In this document: positions 27,934 to 33,206 of the stretch, piece after piece
Position numbering within the stretch: position 1 is the first letter of the stretch
How the letters are laid out: each line of letters opens with the position of its first letter
NCBI RefSeq assembly: GCF_024385465.1
Contig: NZ_JANFLS010000004.1
Location: forward strand, 248,001-312,000
Direction: 5' to 3'
Origin: Arthrobacter sp. zg-Y844
GTDB taxonomy: Bacteria; Actinomycetota; Actinomycetes; Actinomycetales; Micrococcaceae
DNA: 64,000 bases
Made by a program: the position numbers and the translations under genes
The notes under the pieces: model-generated
Database searches by the model: none
What the model saw: the letters and a program-made list of their open reading frames with translations, nothing else
Told to the model about the DNA's origin: nothing

Positions 27934-28185
27934 CTACTCGTTGTGCGAGTATCCCTTGGCCAACTCCGTGGTGGTGTCGGAACGGCCGATGCTGAATGCA
28001 ACGAGGTACATGCCGGTCGCGGCGACCAGCAGAACGGCCATCGGCCACACGTTGTCCAGGGTCAGCCAGTTCACCGCGTAGATGGCGCCCAGGAAGATGG
28101 CGAACATCACGGCAAAGATGAGGATGTTGCTGACCAGATGGCCCTCGCCCGAGTGTGAAGGCTGCTTTGACCGTGTTCCAACCAT
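27934..28185 (-). CDS. Small two-helix membrane protein
   Basis: 83 residues with a basic N-terminus (VGTRSKQPSHSGEGH), two hydrophobic helices (ILIFAVMFAIFLGAIYAVNW and VWPMAVLLVAATGMYLVAF) and a polar tail. GGAG lies 8 bases before the ATG. No family is recognised with certainty. It lies 39 bases downstream of deoC on the same strand, probably in the same transcript, and ends at the strong hairpin at 27882. Confidence 0.65.
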   Translation of the reverse strand: MVGTRSKQPSHSGEGHLVSNILIFAVMFAIFLGAIYAVNWLTLDNVWPMAVLLVAATGMYLVAFSIGRSDTTTELAKGYSHNE

Positions 28186-28899: not shown

Positions 28900-28983
28900 G
28901 GGATCTATCTTGCCATAGGGCAGTGGTGCCGCGTGGTCGAGATCACGGTGGCGGCGGGCTGCCGGGGCGTGCGCAAGGATGAA

Positions 28984-29022
28984 AAAATCGGCCGGGTCCG
29001 CAATGCGGAGCCCGGCCGATTC
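28984..29022 (-). terminator. Terminator after the small secreted peptide gene
   Basis: AATCGGCCGGG-TCCGC and GCGGA-GCCCGGCCGATT form a 16-bp stem with one bulged base and a short AAT loop. On the minus strand the stem is followed by TTTTTTCATCC. It ends the 47-residue peptide gene starting at 29182. Confidence 0.8.
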
Positions 29023-29038
29023 ACTTATTTCCGAACAA

Positions 29039-29182
29039 TTATCCTACGGCCGGCCAGTTGCCAAACAGCTGGACTGCATTCTTGCCGGCTCCAGCTACAG
29101 GAGCTGCGTCGGAATTCTGGGCCACGGCGCCCGCTCCGAAGATAAGGGCGGCCAGGAGTGCAGCTGCACCGAATTTTTTCAT
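29039..29182 (-). CDS. Small secreted peptide precursor, 47 residues
   Basis: ATG at 29182 with a strong AAGGAG site 6 bases upstream; TAA at 29039-29041. The translation starts [20 protein letters not shown], a Lys start plus hydrophobic core, then A-x-A-like cleavage options near residue 20-27 ([10 protein letters not shown]). The remaining ~20 residues ([17 protein letters not shown] region) would be a short exported peptide. No toxin, bacteriocin or lantibiotic motif is seen. It is divergent from a TPR protein gene 111 bases away and has its own terminator. This layout resembles signal-peptide/receptor pairs; the signalling role is inference. Confidence 0.72.
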
Positions 29183-29230
29183 GTCGTGCTCCTTGAGAGA
29201 AACGATGTGGTGGGGTGAAACACCTGAAGT

Positions 29231-29238
29231 ATAGCTAT
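29231..29238. promoter_or_regulatory. ATAGCTAT palindrome between peptide and TPR genes
   Basis: An 8-bp palindrome sits centrally in the 111-base AT-rich region between the divergent small secreted peptide (29182) and TPR gene (29294). It could be part of a promoter or operator, but it is too short to be decisive. Confidence 0.3.
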
Positions 29239-29293
29239 GCTGAAGCTCTTATTGATATGCGATTGGCCATCTTTGGTGAATTCTGAGTAATTA

Positions 29294-30403
29294 TTGCAGA
29301 ATGGCACCGGGCCTCTGTCGCTGGAAGGACCAGAATCCTTGGAAGATGAACAGGTGTATTTAGCCAACGAGTACAAGGCGCAACAAGCGAGCCAGCGTCG
29401 TGACTACGGCAAGGCGGTCGAATATTCGGTGCTCGCGCGTGAAGCTGCACTTCAGGCCGGTGATACCTGGGGATACTGCCGGTTGACGCTCAGCATTGCC
29501 CGGTACCAATACGACCTGGGGCTGATGGATGAGTGCATCCATACAATAAACGCGTTGACAGCTCATCCCGTCATTGTCGACTTCCCGGAAACCGCTGCCC
29601 GCGCCCGGGTGATCCTCTCCGAGGCCTTGAGGAACAAGGGGGCAAGCGACCGTGCGCTGGTTGCGACAGAAGAGGCGATAAGTATCGTTCCGGATCGTTC
29701 CAAGGAATTGCGTACCGCTCTTCAACATTCCATGGTGGCAACCCTGGCTGAGGAGGGGGAGGTGGAAGCGGCGTGGCAGGAAGCGATGGTGCTGGACTCC
29801 CTCGTTGGTCCTGAAGCAGGCGCAAGGGCTAGCGGCATGGCCTACTGGACGATCGGAAATTCGGCATTTATGTCCGGACGGATCGAGGAAGGACTCCGGT
29901 TCCACGAGCAGGCAGCAACGGCCCTGACCCCGTTGGGGGACGTCAACCTATGGGCACTGTTTAATAAGGCCTCGGCAAACCTGCGCATGGATGCAGGGGT
30001 AGTGCAGCCGGAGACCCTCGAATGCATTGAACGGGCGGAAGTAGCCATTTCGGTTTCCGAGGGAAACCTGGCCGACCGGCTGGAGATCCTCTTATCACGC
30101 GCCCACTGGGAACACTTGGCCGGGAATAATGGGGTAGCCGAACAAAAGCTCCGGGACGTGGCCACCAAGGCCGAAGAATTATTCCCGTATACCCGTGCAC
30201 AGGCACTGATGGTTTTGGCGAGATGCCTGTTCGACCTTGGGCGAGCTGGCGAGGCATTGGACGCGGCGCGGGAAGGTGAACGACTATTCGACGGTCTAGG
30301 GGCACCGGTCCAAGCCGAAAGAGCACGGGAGATTATCAGGACCATCCTCCGAAATGACTCCATCACCCAAACAGTTGAACACGAAACGAAAAGTCAGGCC
30401 TAG
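29294..30403 (+). CDS. TPR-repeat protein, possible peptide receptor
   Basis: 369 residues, almost entirely helical, with a series of ~36-40-residue helix pairs such as AQQASQRRDYGKAVEYSVLA, AGDTWGYCRLTLSIARYQYDLG and ALMVLARCLFDLGRAGEALDAA, the TPR pattern. There is no N-terminal helix-turn-helix and no TM segment. This fits cytosolic Rap/RRNPP-like architecture without DNA-binding domain, but TPR proteins have many other roles. The TTG at 29294 is the only start before an in-frame stop, and a GTG at 29355 is an alternative. It is divergent from a small secreted peptide and followed by DUF7793-like and c-di-GMP genes on the same strand. Confidence 0.7.
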   Translation: MQNGTGPLSLEGPESLEDEQVYLANEYKAQQASQRRDYGKAVEYSVLAREAALQAGDTWGYCRLTLSIARYQYDLGLMDECIHTINALTAHPVIVDFPETAARARVILSEALRNKGASDRALVATEEAISIVPDRSKELRTALQHSMVATLAEEGEVEAAWQEAMVLDSLVGPEAGARASGMAYWTIGNSAFMSGRIEEGLRFHEQAATALTPLGDVNLWALFNKASANLRMDAGVVQPETLECIERAEVAISVSEGNLADRLEILLSRAHWEHLAGNNGVAEQKLRDVATKAEELFPYTRAQALMVLARCLFDLGRAGEALDAAREGERLFDGLGAPVQAERAREIIRTILRNDSITQTVEHETKSQA

Positions 30404-30540
30404 AAACTCGATATTTATGTATCGAAGGCGCACAATACAAACACCGTCTTTCGAATTATCGGCGGCAATCACGGACGAGCCGTTCCAAATCGGCGAGGGA
30501 ATCCGCTGCATTTGATCCTGCGCAGCGACTTGGGGGAAGC

Positions 30541-31002
30541 ATGGCTAGACGCGATAGATTGCAGTACGCAGGGACACGCCCTTATGCCGACCCGCAGAAC
30601 CCGCCGGACGGCAAGGGCGTGCTAACCGGGGATGAAAGGATTTCCCCCGGGCACATCTCGGTCGAATTCGCCGAGGAGGGACATTTGGTACTGGCGTTGC
30701 CGCCAGGTGAAGTGATCACCGGGACGATGGCCCTGCAGGCGGCAGAGAAGATCCAGGCCCTCGCCGGAGCCAGCACCCTGCCTCTGCTCCTGGTCCTGAC
30801 TGGAGTGGATTCAGTATCCCGAAGCGCCCGCGACGTTTTCAGTGCGGCGCGGTCGCTCTCGGCGGTGGCCGTCATGGGTGTCTCGCCGGTGGACCGCGTT
30901 ATTGCCAATTTTCTGCTGGGCGGCGAAGTGCAGCCGTGTCCCACCCGCTACTTCTCAAGCGAACCTGACGCGCTTGGCTGGCTGAAACGATTTGCGGTAT
31001 GA
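30541..31002 (+). CDS. DUF7793-like (STAS/MglB-like fold) protein
   Basis: 153 residues. The C-terminal ~110 residues match small actinobacterial proteins described as DUF7793 or STAS/SEC14-like: GHISVEFAEEGHLVLALPPG, LPLLLVLTGVDSVSRSARDVF, AVMGVSPVDRVIANFLLGG and PCPTRYFSSEPDALGWL. The fold is probably an alpha/beta STAS-like domain. Function unknown. Its stop codon overlaps the start of the GGDEF/EAL gene (ATGA), so co-translation is certain and a regulatory role toward that enzyme is plausible. In this lineage such genes are often found next to diguanylate cyclases. The first 35 residues are low complexity. Confidence 0.68.
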   Translation: MARRDRLQYAGTRPYADPQNPPDGKGVLTGDERISPGHISVEFAEEGHLVLALPPGEVITGTMALQAAEKIQALAGASTLPLLLVLTGVDSVSRSARDVFSAARSLSAVAVMGVSPVDRVIANFLLGGEVQPCPTRYFSSEPDALGWLKRFAV

Positions 31003-32582
31003 CACCTGACTCTGAAGCCGCCAATCTGTCCGGCGAAGCCGTCCGGCTGAACAGGATAGTCGAGGGCATTGTCAGCATCGCGGCGGGAAACCTCACATCG
31101 CGAATTCCCGTTTCGCCCGCACGCGACCAGATTGATGCCGTCAGCACGGGCATTAATCTGCTGGCCGAAGAACTGGACGACATTTACCGGGACCTTGAGC
31201 AGCGTGTGCAGGACCGTACCCAGGAGCTCCGGGAAGCTCACGCCCAGATGCAGCACATGGCCCTTAGCGACCCCCTCACCGGGGCTGGAAACAGAACTGC
31301 CTTGATGCAGGCAGCTGAGGACGCATTGACGGTTTGGAACGTCGAGCAAGTTCGGGATACCGCGCCGGCGGTATTGATGGTTGACCTGGACGGGTTCAAA
31401 GACATCAATGACAGCTTCGGACACCAAGCGGGTGACCGGGTACTCCAAGAAGTGGCGACAAGATTGCTCGCCTGCGTGCCGGGGGATAGCACCGTTTCAC
31501 GGCTCGGCGGCGACGAATTCGCGGTTCTGCTCCCTGACGTCAGCCGCATGTCCGCCCGGGCGACGGCCGAGCGTGTGCAGGAAGCACTGGGGTTCAAAAT
31601 GAAGGTGGAGGAACTGGATGTCTGGCCCCGTGCCAGCATTGGCGTGCACCTGGCCGAGGTTGGGCAGTCCGCCGAAGACCTGCTTCTCCGCGCCGACACG
31701 GCAATGTACGAAGCGAAGGAAGACGGTCCGGGCCTGGTCCGGCTATTTGAACCGGTGATGCTCTACGCCCGCCAACTGCGGCGCAAAATGTCCTCTGATC
31801 TGCGCAATGCCGTTGAACGCAACGAGTTTCGGCTGGCGTACCAGCCCGTTGTAGATCTGGTCACCGGAAAGATGCAGGGTGTGGAGGTGCTGCTGCGCTG
31901 GGAGCATCCGACGCAGGGACTGGTCATGCCGGACATCTTCATTCCGCTGGCCGAGGAAAGCGGAGCCATCCTGGGGATCGGACGCTGGGTGCTGCGGTCT
32001 GCCCTGGAGCAACTAGCGCAGTGGCGTGAGGCCGATCAGGACCAGGACGGCTTCCATATCCGCGTCAACGTCTCCCCGTCTGAACTGCAGAGCATGGACC
32101 TGGTCGACTTTGTCCGGGCGCAGCTGCGGGAAGCCGGCGCAGCTCCGCAGGATCTGGTTCTCGAGATCACCGAGAGCGCTTTCGTGGGCAGCGGAGACGT
32201 TGAGACTTACTCCATGAGGTCGCTCAAAGCCCTGGGCGTCCGCTTGGAAATCGACGATTTCGGCACGGGGTATTCATCCATCAGCTACCTGCGGCGCCTG
32301 CCGGTGGATACCGTCAAGGTGGACCGCGCCCTGATCGCCGAGATCAGCCGCGACGAAGGGCAGCTGCAGTTCGTGGACGCCGTTCACCGGCTCATCCAGG
32401 CCGCCGGAATGGAAGCAGTCTTCGAAGGAATAGAGACCCTGGAGCAGGCTGAACTACTGCAGGACATGGGCTGCTGCAGCGGCCAGGGCTACTACTTCAG
32501 CCGGCCGCTCACCGCCGGGCAGGTGGGAACGCTCCTGACCAGCGGCAGCCGCCTGCCGCTGGCCACGGAACTGCTGGCGTAA
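30999..32582 (+). CDS. Soluble GGDEF/EAL c-di-GMP protein with N-terminal HAMP-like domain
   Basis: 527 residues. Residues ~15-75 look like a HAMP/coiled-coil (SIAAGNLTSRIPVSPARDQID, then a long helix), but no TM segment precedes it. GGDEF (~95-255) has an intact active-site loop RLGGDEFAVLLP and metal-binding VDLDGFKDIND; no RxxD inhibitory site precedes it. The EAL domain (~275-520) has EVLLRW in place of EAL-LRW, and NVSPSEL, EITES, IDDFGTGYSS, VKVDR and the terminal FEGIET are present. Both activities look possible, so it may make and break cyclic di-GMP in response to a partner. Coupled to the DUF7793-like gene. Confidence 0.88.
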   Translation: MTPDSEAANLSGEAVRLNRIVEGIVSIAAGNLTSRIPVSPARDQIDAVSTGINLLAEELDDIYRDLEQRVQDRTQELREAHAQMQHMALSDPLTGAGNRTALMQAAEDALTVWNVEQVRDTAPAVLMVDLDGFKDINDSFGHQAGDRVLQEVATRLLACVPGDSTVSRLGGDEFAVLLPDVSRMSARATAERVQEALGFKMKVEELDVWPRASIGVHLAEVGQSAEDLLLRADTAMYEAKEDGPGLVRLFEPVMLYARQLRRKMSSDLRNAVERNEFRLAYQPVVDLVTGKMQGVEVLLRWEHPTQGLVMPDIFIPLAEESGAILGIGRWVLRSALEQLAQWREADQDQDGFHIRVNVSPSELQSMDLVDFVRAQLREAGAAPQDLVLEITESAFVGSGDVETYSMRSLKALGVRLEIDDFGTGYSSISYLRRLPVDTVKVDRALIAEISRDEGQLQFVDAVHRLIQAAGMEAVFEGIETLEQAELLQDMGCCSGQGYYFSRPLTAGQVGTLLTSGSRLPLATELLA

Positions 32583-32630
32583 CCGGACACTGCTGGCCTA
32601 ATCGGGCGCCCGGACGCAGGTGAAGGAAGC

Positions 32631-33188
32631 TCAGTTCCGGACCCGGTACCGCAGGAACACGACGCCGTTGGCGAATCGTTTCTCCTCCAGCAGCTCCAGA
32701 TCCAGCCGCAGACCGTCCGGCAGGAACCGCTTCCCGCCACCGACAATCACGGGGGAGAGCAGCTGCTGCAACTCGTCAACCAGCCCCGCCTGCAGCGCCT
32801 GGCCGGCGAGGTCCGCTCCGCCCACGGAAACGTCGCCGTCGGACGCCTCCACGAGTGCCCGCACGGCAGCGGGATCGAACTCCCGTTCCAGCCGCGTGCG
32901 CGGGGCGGAGAGGCCGGCGAGGGTTCGAGAGAAAACCACCTTGTCCGCCCCCTGCCAGATCCGCGCGTACTCGTGGATGGCGGGCGGCTCGTCCTCTGCG
33001 GGGACGGCGTCCCAGGCAGCCATCACCTCATAAAGCCGCCGTCCCAACAGATGCGTGTGGACGTCCCGCTCAAGCCCGTTGACGAAGGAATGGACCTCTT
33101 CATCGGGCATGCTCCAGTCAAAGGACCCGGACTCGTCCGCTATGTACCCGTCGAGCGACGTGATGCTGGTGTAGATCAGCCGTCCCAT
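32631..33188 (-). CDS. Dihydrofolate reductase-family protein (RibD C-terminal-like)
   Basis: 185 residues of the DHFR-like fold. The start SITSLDGYIADESGSFDW, LLGRRLYEVM, DKVVFSRTL and DVSVGGADLAGQALQAGLVDEL are typical of the RibD_C family found singly in actinobacteria. It is probably an NADPH-dependent reductase; it is unlikely to be the housekeeping dihydrofolate reductase. GGGAGG lies 5 bases upstream of the ATG. It follows the phosphosugar mutase by 18 bases on the same strand. Confidence 0.85.
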   Translation of the reverse strand: MGRLIYTSITSLDGYIADESGSFDWSMPDEEVHSFVNGLERDVHTHLLGRRLYEVMAAWDAVPAEDEPPAIHEYARIWQGADKVVFSRTLAGLSAPRTRLEREFDPAAVRALVEASDGDVSVGGADLAGQALQAGLVDELQQLLSPVIVGGGKRFLPDGLRLDLELLEEKRFANGVVFLRYRVRN

Positions 33189-33206
33189 GCCGGCCTCCCG
33201 CTTAGG

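Follow-up and report, generated by a model that had tools for sequence, protein, structure and literature searches.

Within the 64,000-nucleotide stretch of DNA from Arthrobacter sp. zg-Y844 that was analysed here (the window), a small propeptide gene and a divergently oriented TPR protein gene likely form a peptide-pheromone/intracellular TPR-receptor pair, as judged from sequence comparisons. The locus probably represents an actinobacterial peptide-pheromone/TPR-receptor system with RRNPP-like anatomy, which here would act through c-di-GMP. On balance, we lean towards a broader reading, in which the pair belongs to a largely unrecognised actinobacterial peptide-pheromone superfamily that reaches from Arthrobacter to Streptomyces and combines precursors carrying one to five x-x-W-P copies with XRE-HTH/TPR receptors, located in Streptomyces amid biosynthetic genes. 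The Micrococcaceae branch of this superfamily would have lost the DNA-binding domain and been rewired to GGDEF-EAL/DUF7793, with a re-imported peptide controlling c-di-GMP, and the cassette would there be a pherotype locus that diverges fast, with sharp differences between species that are otherwise near-identical.

The propeptide gene (29039–29182, minus strand) has 47 codons and an ATG start, and its assignment is based on the sequence and on the conservation of the pair across the genus described below. It is preceded by a ribosome-binding site, AAGGAG, six nucleotides 5' of the ATG (29189–29194, minus strand), and followed by a strong intrinsic terminator recognised from RNA folding and sequence (28982–29022, minus strand), whose stem of 17 pairs with one unpaired base runs into six T; the fold energy, calculated for the whole folded region, is −34.6 kcal/mol. 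This terminator was not among the matches of a simple terminator scan. The ORF, the AAGGAG site and the 17-pair stem bear out the preliminary description of the locus, which had reported a 47-codon gene with a strong ribosome site, a signal peptide and its own terminator. The signal peptide comprises about residues 1–26, with a presumed cleavage site, and is followed by a variable linker and a C-terminal segment; the export signal of propeptides was judged by composition. The putative pheromone core is FGNWP (residues 40–44, codons at 29051–29065, minus strand), as suggested by the peptide alignment and by motif copies in relatives. The divergent intergenic region (29183–29338) presumably contains both promoters; a consensus promoter scan of the locus found no site. 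It had been described as an AT-rich spacer of 111 bp: the AT-richness stands (43% G+C for those 111 bp), but the length is likely 156 bp, over which the G+C content is 48%, compared with 65.5% for the window.

The mechanical ORF of the TPR protein comprises 369 residues from TTG 29294. The TPR proteins of relatives begin near its residue 16, so TTG 29339, which is preceded by GGAAGGA, is the likelier start, giving the 156-bp spacer and an HTH-less receptor candidate of 354 residues (29339–30403, plus strand) that is defined by the ORF, the homologue starts and an AlphaFold2 model. Pfam matched the protein with TPR-type models only, all below their cut-offs, and detected no HTH; the earlier claim of a 369-residue TPR protein without a DNA-binding domain thus holds as to the missing HTH but not as to the length. 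The AlphaFold2 model, built from 33 sequences (mean pLDDT 95.5, pTM 0.86), is predicted to be all-helical, consisting of eight helical hairpins followed by one helix at the C-terminus. In seven of the eight repeats the A helix, taken as groove-lining by analogy with TPR proteins, is more conserved than its own B helix, and the alignment of the 33 sequences shows no variation at W170, W205, F208, N209, R216, R254 and W257. Foldseek matched the model best with general TPR superhelices, namely LGN/Pins (LGN in complexes) and designed TPRs; the best 50 of 146 matches at E ≤ 0.001 include no RRNPP receptor. With its predicted TPR superhelix and putative peptide binding, the protein falls within the 250–500 residue range of RRNPP receptors.

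Divergent peptide/TPR pairs were found, through the TPR protein, in all 28 genomes of the genus and in 32 out of 35 named loci; two of the other three are cut by a contig edge, and in the third the reading frame of the TPR gene is interrupted. By these counts, TPR homologues in related genomes do have a small secreted peptide beside them, their lack of one having been named at the outset as a possible refutation. The impression that in some loci the peptide follows the TPR gene was wrong, those loci lying on the minus strand.

In a chance control, we counted signal-peptide-like divergent ORFs with WP within 700 bp of receptors that have at least 300 bp of upstream sequence, after near-identical receptors had been removed (166 kept of 238). 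Receptors were sorted by a regular expression, whose HTH calls look wrong for L145, L058 and L160. Such an ORF accompanies 81 of 88 distinct HTH-less receptors of the Micrococcaceae type versus 36 of 1058 control ORFs of the same loci (Fisher p about 1e-86), a count inflated by the 27 of these 88 that were fetched through the peptide itself. The corresponding numbers are 16/35 for HTH-bearing receptors, with a genus paralogue making up 15 of the 19 misses, and 13/41 for Streptomyces-type receptors. Since a figure of 37/40 comes from peptide-fetched loci and cannot tell how often a receptor has a peptide, the count was redone without them, yielding 54/61 for HTH-less, 10/29 for HTH-bearing and 13/41 for Streptomyces-type receptors. 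Three of the seven HTH-less misses carry a peptide with FP in place of WP (L023, L026 and L195), and the others are L058, L160, L171 (the receptor at 1002) and L188. ORFs with at least two similar xxxWP copies, required to be signal-peptide-like and within 1200 bp on either strand, occur at 18/90 HTH-less, 15/35 HTH-bearing and 12/41 Streptomyces-type receptors versus 4/869 controls, three of these four controls being true peptides located farther from their receptor. Weak matches at E about 0.001–0.01, among the matches listed, look like signal-peptide similarity alone and were left out of the counts. In L091, L100 and L102, peptide homologues ending in WWP have no TPR receptor in the fetched 9–10 kb and are possible orphan signals. 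A locus labelled as Vibrio cholerae strain 35D (L169, WNZI01000017.1) holds an Arthrobacter-type TPR/peptide/GGDEF-EAL arrangement, so this assembly is probably mislabelled or contaminated.

The propeptides of relatives carry a short motif built around WP, which is present once to five times. Two copies were found for IGWWPN (L095–L098) and IGNWPDPM (L126–L128, with three copies in L042); three for KVGNWPDG (L119 and L182, the latter from Arthrobacter sp. Soil782), IGDWPN (L172) and PTVGGSWPT (L146, from another family of the order); four for VGNWPDPM (L140); and five for VTPAVGNWPDR (L145), while L123 carries VGSWPNGVGSWPN. By their sequences, these multi-copy precursors look like pheromone precursors. 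The preliminary description had proposed random synonymous and non-synonymous change in the peptide frame as evidence against the pair. Among 28 genus sequences, the signal region is constrained (pooled pN/pS 0.28, median dN/dS 0.13), and the mature region is nearer neutral (pooled pN/pS 0.79, median dN/dS 0.74), but the proline is kept in 29/29 and WP in 26/29 aligned peptides, FP replacing WP in the peptides of three species (L023, L025/L195 and L026). The motif type clusters on the receptor tree, in which some joins are long branches, with 36 changes compared with a shuffled mean of 61.1 and none of 200 shuffles as low, a pattern that could also follow from common descent. In L119–L122 (group g53, with L170 and L182 as named copies), two tandem receptor/peptide pairs lie about 1.5 kb apart and differ in pheromone, one being of the multi-copy GNWP type and the other of the single LIDDWPH type.

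Beyond the HTH-less branch, XRE-HTH/TPR receptors with divergent multi-copy GNWP precursors were found in genus g10 and others, and Pfam detected an HTH in relatives L042 (HTH_31/HTH_3), L146, L196, L197 and L204. A second family member is present in each of the 28 genus genomes. In the genome of the window, this paralogue (L044:8757-9968; G000:C4, about 205.8–207.0 kb) is separated from the window pair by about 70 kb and encodes a TPR protein with a degenerate HTH-like N-terminus, the HTH being below Pfam detection; its gene is convergent with an Rpf-type transglycosylase gene (Transglycosylas/G5/DUF348). No peptide was found beside the genus paralogue in the 17 loci fetched. Among a class-wide draw of 394 genomes, 18 were matched, with 12 of them outside the order and eight in group g132, which we infer to be Streptomyces; an alignment of the Streptomyces type matched 22 of 101 g132 genomes. 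Several receptors of this type lie near exported precursors that contain copies of DIEWP, DIGWP, DISWP or IDWP, either divergent from the receptor gene or upstream of it in the same direction, and most of the 41 receptors have no such precursor by automatic tests.

The Streptomyces-type receptor was also identified on 37 plasmid records, 35 of them from Streptomyces. Five of eight plasmid regions have an annotated WP-type peptide (WP_331742133.1, WP_328973789.1, WP_158072180.1, WP_158709179.1 and WP_158514079.1), at a distance from the receptor of about 2.3 kb in L237 and about 1 kb in L240–L242; no convincing peptide was found in regions L236, L238 and L239. The plasmid regions hold biosynthetic genes (NRPS, acyl carrier protein, ATP-grasp). 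On the plasmids of Streptomyces sp. NBC_01178, S. parvus and S. globisporus C-1027 (L240, L241 and L242, respectively), an acyl-carrier-protein gene lies between the XRE-TPR receptor and a small exported peptide with two VEWP copies, and peptide signalling may control the biosynthetic cluster at these loci. The window TPR protein had no tblastn match in phage and plasmid records, and no viral contig was confirmed from 32 pattern matches; a phage-borne, AimR-like origin of this protein is therefore unsupported.

The cassette is an island of divergence in an otherwise conserved neighbourhood. We compared the window with seven genus loci (L004 and L006–L011) whose DeoC is 97–100% identical to that of the window, leaving out L002, which looks like the same species. 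The receptor is only 41–46% identical in all seven of these loci, where the 83-residue neighbour is 95–99% and DUF7793, in its aligned part, 59–82% identical. The 83-residue protein (window 27934–28185, minus strand) occupies the same place across genus loci, with 52–100% identity. In the comparison with A. yangruifuii (L162), identity amounts to 97% for Mfd, DeoC and PNP, 92% for PGM, 77% for the GGDEF-EAL protein and 41% for the TPR protein; at the DNA level, blastn gave 88–93% for the flanks, 68% for the peptide signal region and 76% for the GGDEF-EAL stretch, with no match across the TPR gene. Across window positions 28930–33200, set against L162, L004 and L006–L011, the flanking proteins are 91–100% and the receptor 41–46% identical. 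The receptor and peptide appear to change much more quickly than the genes around them, which is what would be expected of signals specific to a strain or species. From these sequence comparisons, the cassette would either be exchanged between lineages or be diverging very fast; both would fit a specificity locus, and neither would fit plain housekeeping genes. The pherotype loci of known peptide systems are specificity loci of this kind.

Two genes co-directional with the TPR gene lie immediately downstream of it, and Pfam confirmed both of the products named in the preliminary description, a DUF7793-like protein and a GGDEF/EAL enzyme. The DUF7793 protein (30541–31002, plus strand; Pfam DUF7793, E = 2.3e-14), a candidate partner or output by linkage, is probably SpoIIAA/STAS-like, as suggested by one relative that matches a SpoIIAA-like model at E = 2e-4, below the cut-off of that model. 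Its gene overlaps by 4 nt the gene of a HAMP-GGDEF-EAL protein (30999–32582, plus strand; Pfam GGDEF 1.9e-37, EAL 5.5e-74), the candidate c-di-GMP output, which has the catalytic motifs GGDEF, EVLLR and DDFGTG. Linkage was counted as a homologue within 7 kb of receptors with at least 3 kb of sequence on both sides. Outside the genus, 38 of 50 HTH-less receptors have a GGDEF-EAL homologue nearby and 19 of 50 a DUF7793 homologue, and inside it the count is 12 of 12 for each; some of the 50 receptors are tandem copies or close kin and hence dependent. No GGDEF-EAL homologue was found within 7 kb of HTH-bearing receptors outside the genus (0/8), of the genus paralogue (0/16) or of the remaining 12 of the 50 HTH-less receptors, and DeoC, used as a synteny control, occurs near none of the 50. 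With relatedness ignored, the comparison of 38/50 with 0/24 gives a Fisher p of 7e-11. This linkage supports the GGDEF/EAL enzyme as a putative output through Rap-like protein contact. GGDEF-EAL genes are common, and linkage is no proof of interaction. In group g10, a DUF7793 gene stands beside a GAF histidine kinase gene near the pair (L095:2178-2615 and L095:2765-4432), hinting at a wider signalling island.

The locus had been proposed to encode an RRNPP-like signalling pair, which holds for its anatomy, in that the pair may work like one; membership by sequence was not found. The RNPP_C profile (PF18768) matched none of 29 genomes, with none over the cut-off in 14 control genomes either; the only sequence likeness to RRNPP receptors is to RapF chains (E = 0.12); and the fold search added no match among its best 50 of 146. 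RRNPP receptors carry an N-terminal HTH or, in Rap, a three-helix bundle; Pfam recognised an HTH in the relatives named above and none in the window protein. The closest parallel is the Rap-Phr system of Bacillus, where an HTH-less TPR protein likewise stands beside a small secreted propeptide; the present pair differs in phylum, in lacking an RNPP_C match, in its divergent orientation, in its WP core and in its linkage to GGDEF-EAL/DUF7793. The targets of Rap are response regulators of the Spo0F/ComA type; the neighbour conserved here is GGDEF-EAL, often together with DUF7793. Rap-Phr propeptides with repeated pheromone copies are described in the available part of one report (PMC11343458). 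PlcR-PapR, Rgg-SHP, ComR-ComS and AimR-AimP combine an HTH + TPR-type receptor with an exported propeptide, as do the HTH-bearing loci L042, L126–L130, L146, L196 and L204. The present family differs from them in that no sequence-family match was found, in its multi-copy WP precursors and in its occurrence in Micrococcaceae and Streptomyces. Signalling by gamma-butyrolactones (A-factor type) resembles the proposed system as cell-density signalling in actinobacteria; it uses a small-molecule signal and a TetR-type receptor, and no peptide. Stand-alone GGDEF-EAL regulators contain the same type of enzyme as that found downstream here, where, unlike in those regulators, its gene is linked to that of a peptide receptor and, within the genus, to a DUF7793 gene.

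For the mechanism, we infer export, processing, import, binding and the output with its sign. The propeptide would carry a Sec-type signal peptide and be cleaved on export, and a short C-terminal peptide around FGNWP would accumulate outside the cell, re-enter through an oligopeptide permease and bind to the cytosolic TPR protein in its concave groove. Four OppA-type binding proteins exceed the Pfam cut-off in the window genome, and such proteins are likewise present in 11 of 14 control genomes; being common in bacteria, they only permit the import model. Since the window TPR protein has no XRE DNA-binding domain such as its relatives possess, it would most likely act in the Rap style, through protein binding, and its best candidate partners would be the co-directional DUF7793 and HAMP-GGDEF-EAL proteins. 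The level of the peptide, and with it cell density, would then set c-di-GMP.

The pheromone and receptor may also be real with an output other than c-di-GMP, the HTH-less TPR protein sequestering the peptide or acting on another regulator, such as the paralogue with a degenerate HTH about 70 kb away. We regard this as a possible, if clearly less probable, account. It would suit the finding that, outside the genus, 12 of the 50 HTH-less receptors have no GGDEF-EAL homologue within 7 kb, as well as the presence in all 28 genus genomes of a second family member, for which no peptide of its own was found in the 17 loci fetched; the paralogue in L044, the sole one scanned, also has no HTH by Pfam. 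The c-di-GMP reading is favoured over it by gene order: among the window neighbours tested, the GGDEF-EAL gene, and less often the DUF7793 gene, is kept when synteny changes, as reflected in 38/50 versus 0/50 for DeoC.

It is unlikely that the peptide is instead a secreted antimicrobial or a multi-core modified peptide with the TPR protein as its regulator or immunity factor. Some Streptomyces relatives do lie amid biosynthetic genes, one being flanked by ATP-grasp on both sides, multi-copy precursors also occur in modified-peptide families, and fast divergence would suit an antimicrobial too. Against this, the neighbours tested for the Micrococcaceae pairs include no conserved modifying enzyme, the precursors have a plain Sec-like signal, their shared core is a few residues only with a varying copy number, and the association is kept by distant XRE-TPR proteins. 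That the two genes are mere neighbours through synteny, with no functional tie, is already disfavoured and appears very improbable: the whole neighbourhood (Mfd, DeoC, PGM and PNP) is conserved within the genus, but outside it the flanks differ and the divergent pair stays, DeoC being absent near all 50 receptors, and L119–L122 have two receptor copies in tandem, which are accompanied by different peptides. The peptide-pheromone/TPR-receptor pair, with c-di-GMP as its probable output, is the reading that we retain.

In its available text, a large RRNPP survey describes quorum sensing by re-imported peptides with cytosolic TPR receptors as a speciality of Firmicutes, and actinobacterial signals as typically enzyme-made small molecules (PMC10075063); an older review, in the part available, does mention actinobacterial peptides that are cyclic or modified (PMC4748050). 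Among the matches listed in a literature search that covered titles and abstract starts, with preprints and subscription papers outside its scope, none reports this pair or its motifs, and searches with the motifs brought up unrelated papers. The genes of such pairs are easy to miss because of generic annotation: in the eight Streptomyces plasmid regions, the receptors are annotated as 'helix-turn-helix domain-containing protein' and the annotated peptides as 'hypothetical protein'. If the proposed reading is true, a family of WP peptides and TPR receptors shared by Arthrobacter and Streptomyces would extend this type of signalling to another phylum. Its short peptides could be synthesised for testing, and it might offer a way into biosynthetic clusters as well as a connection from peptide signalling to c-di-GMP.
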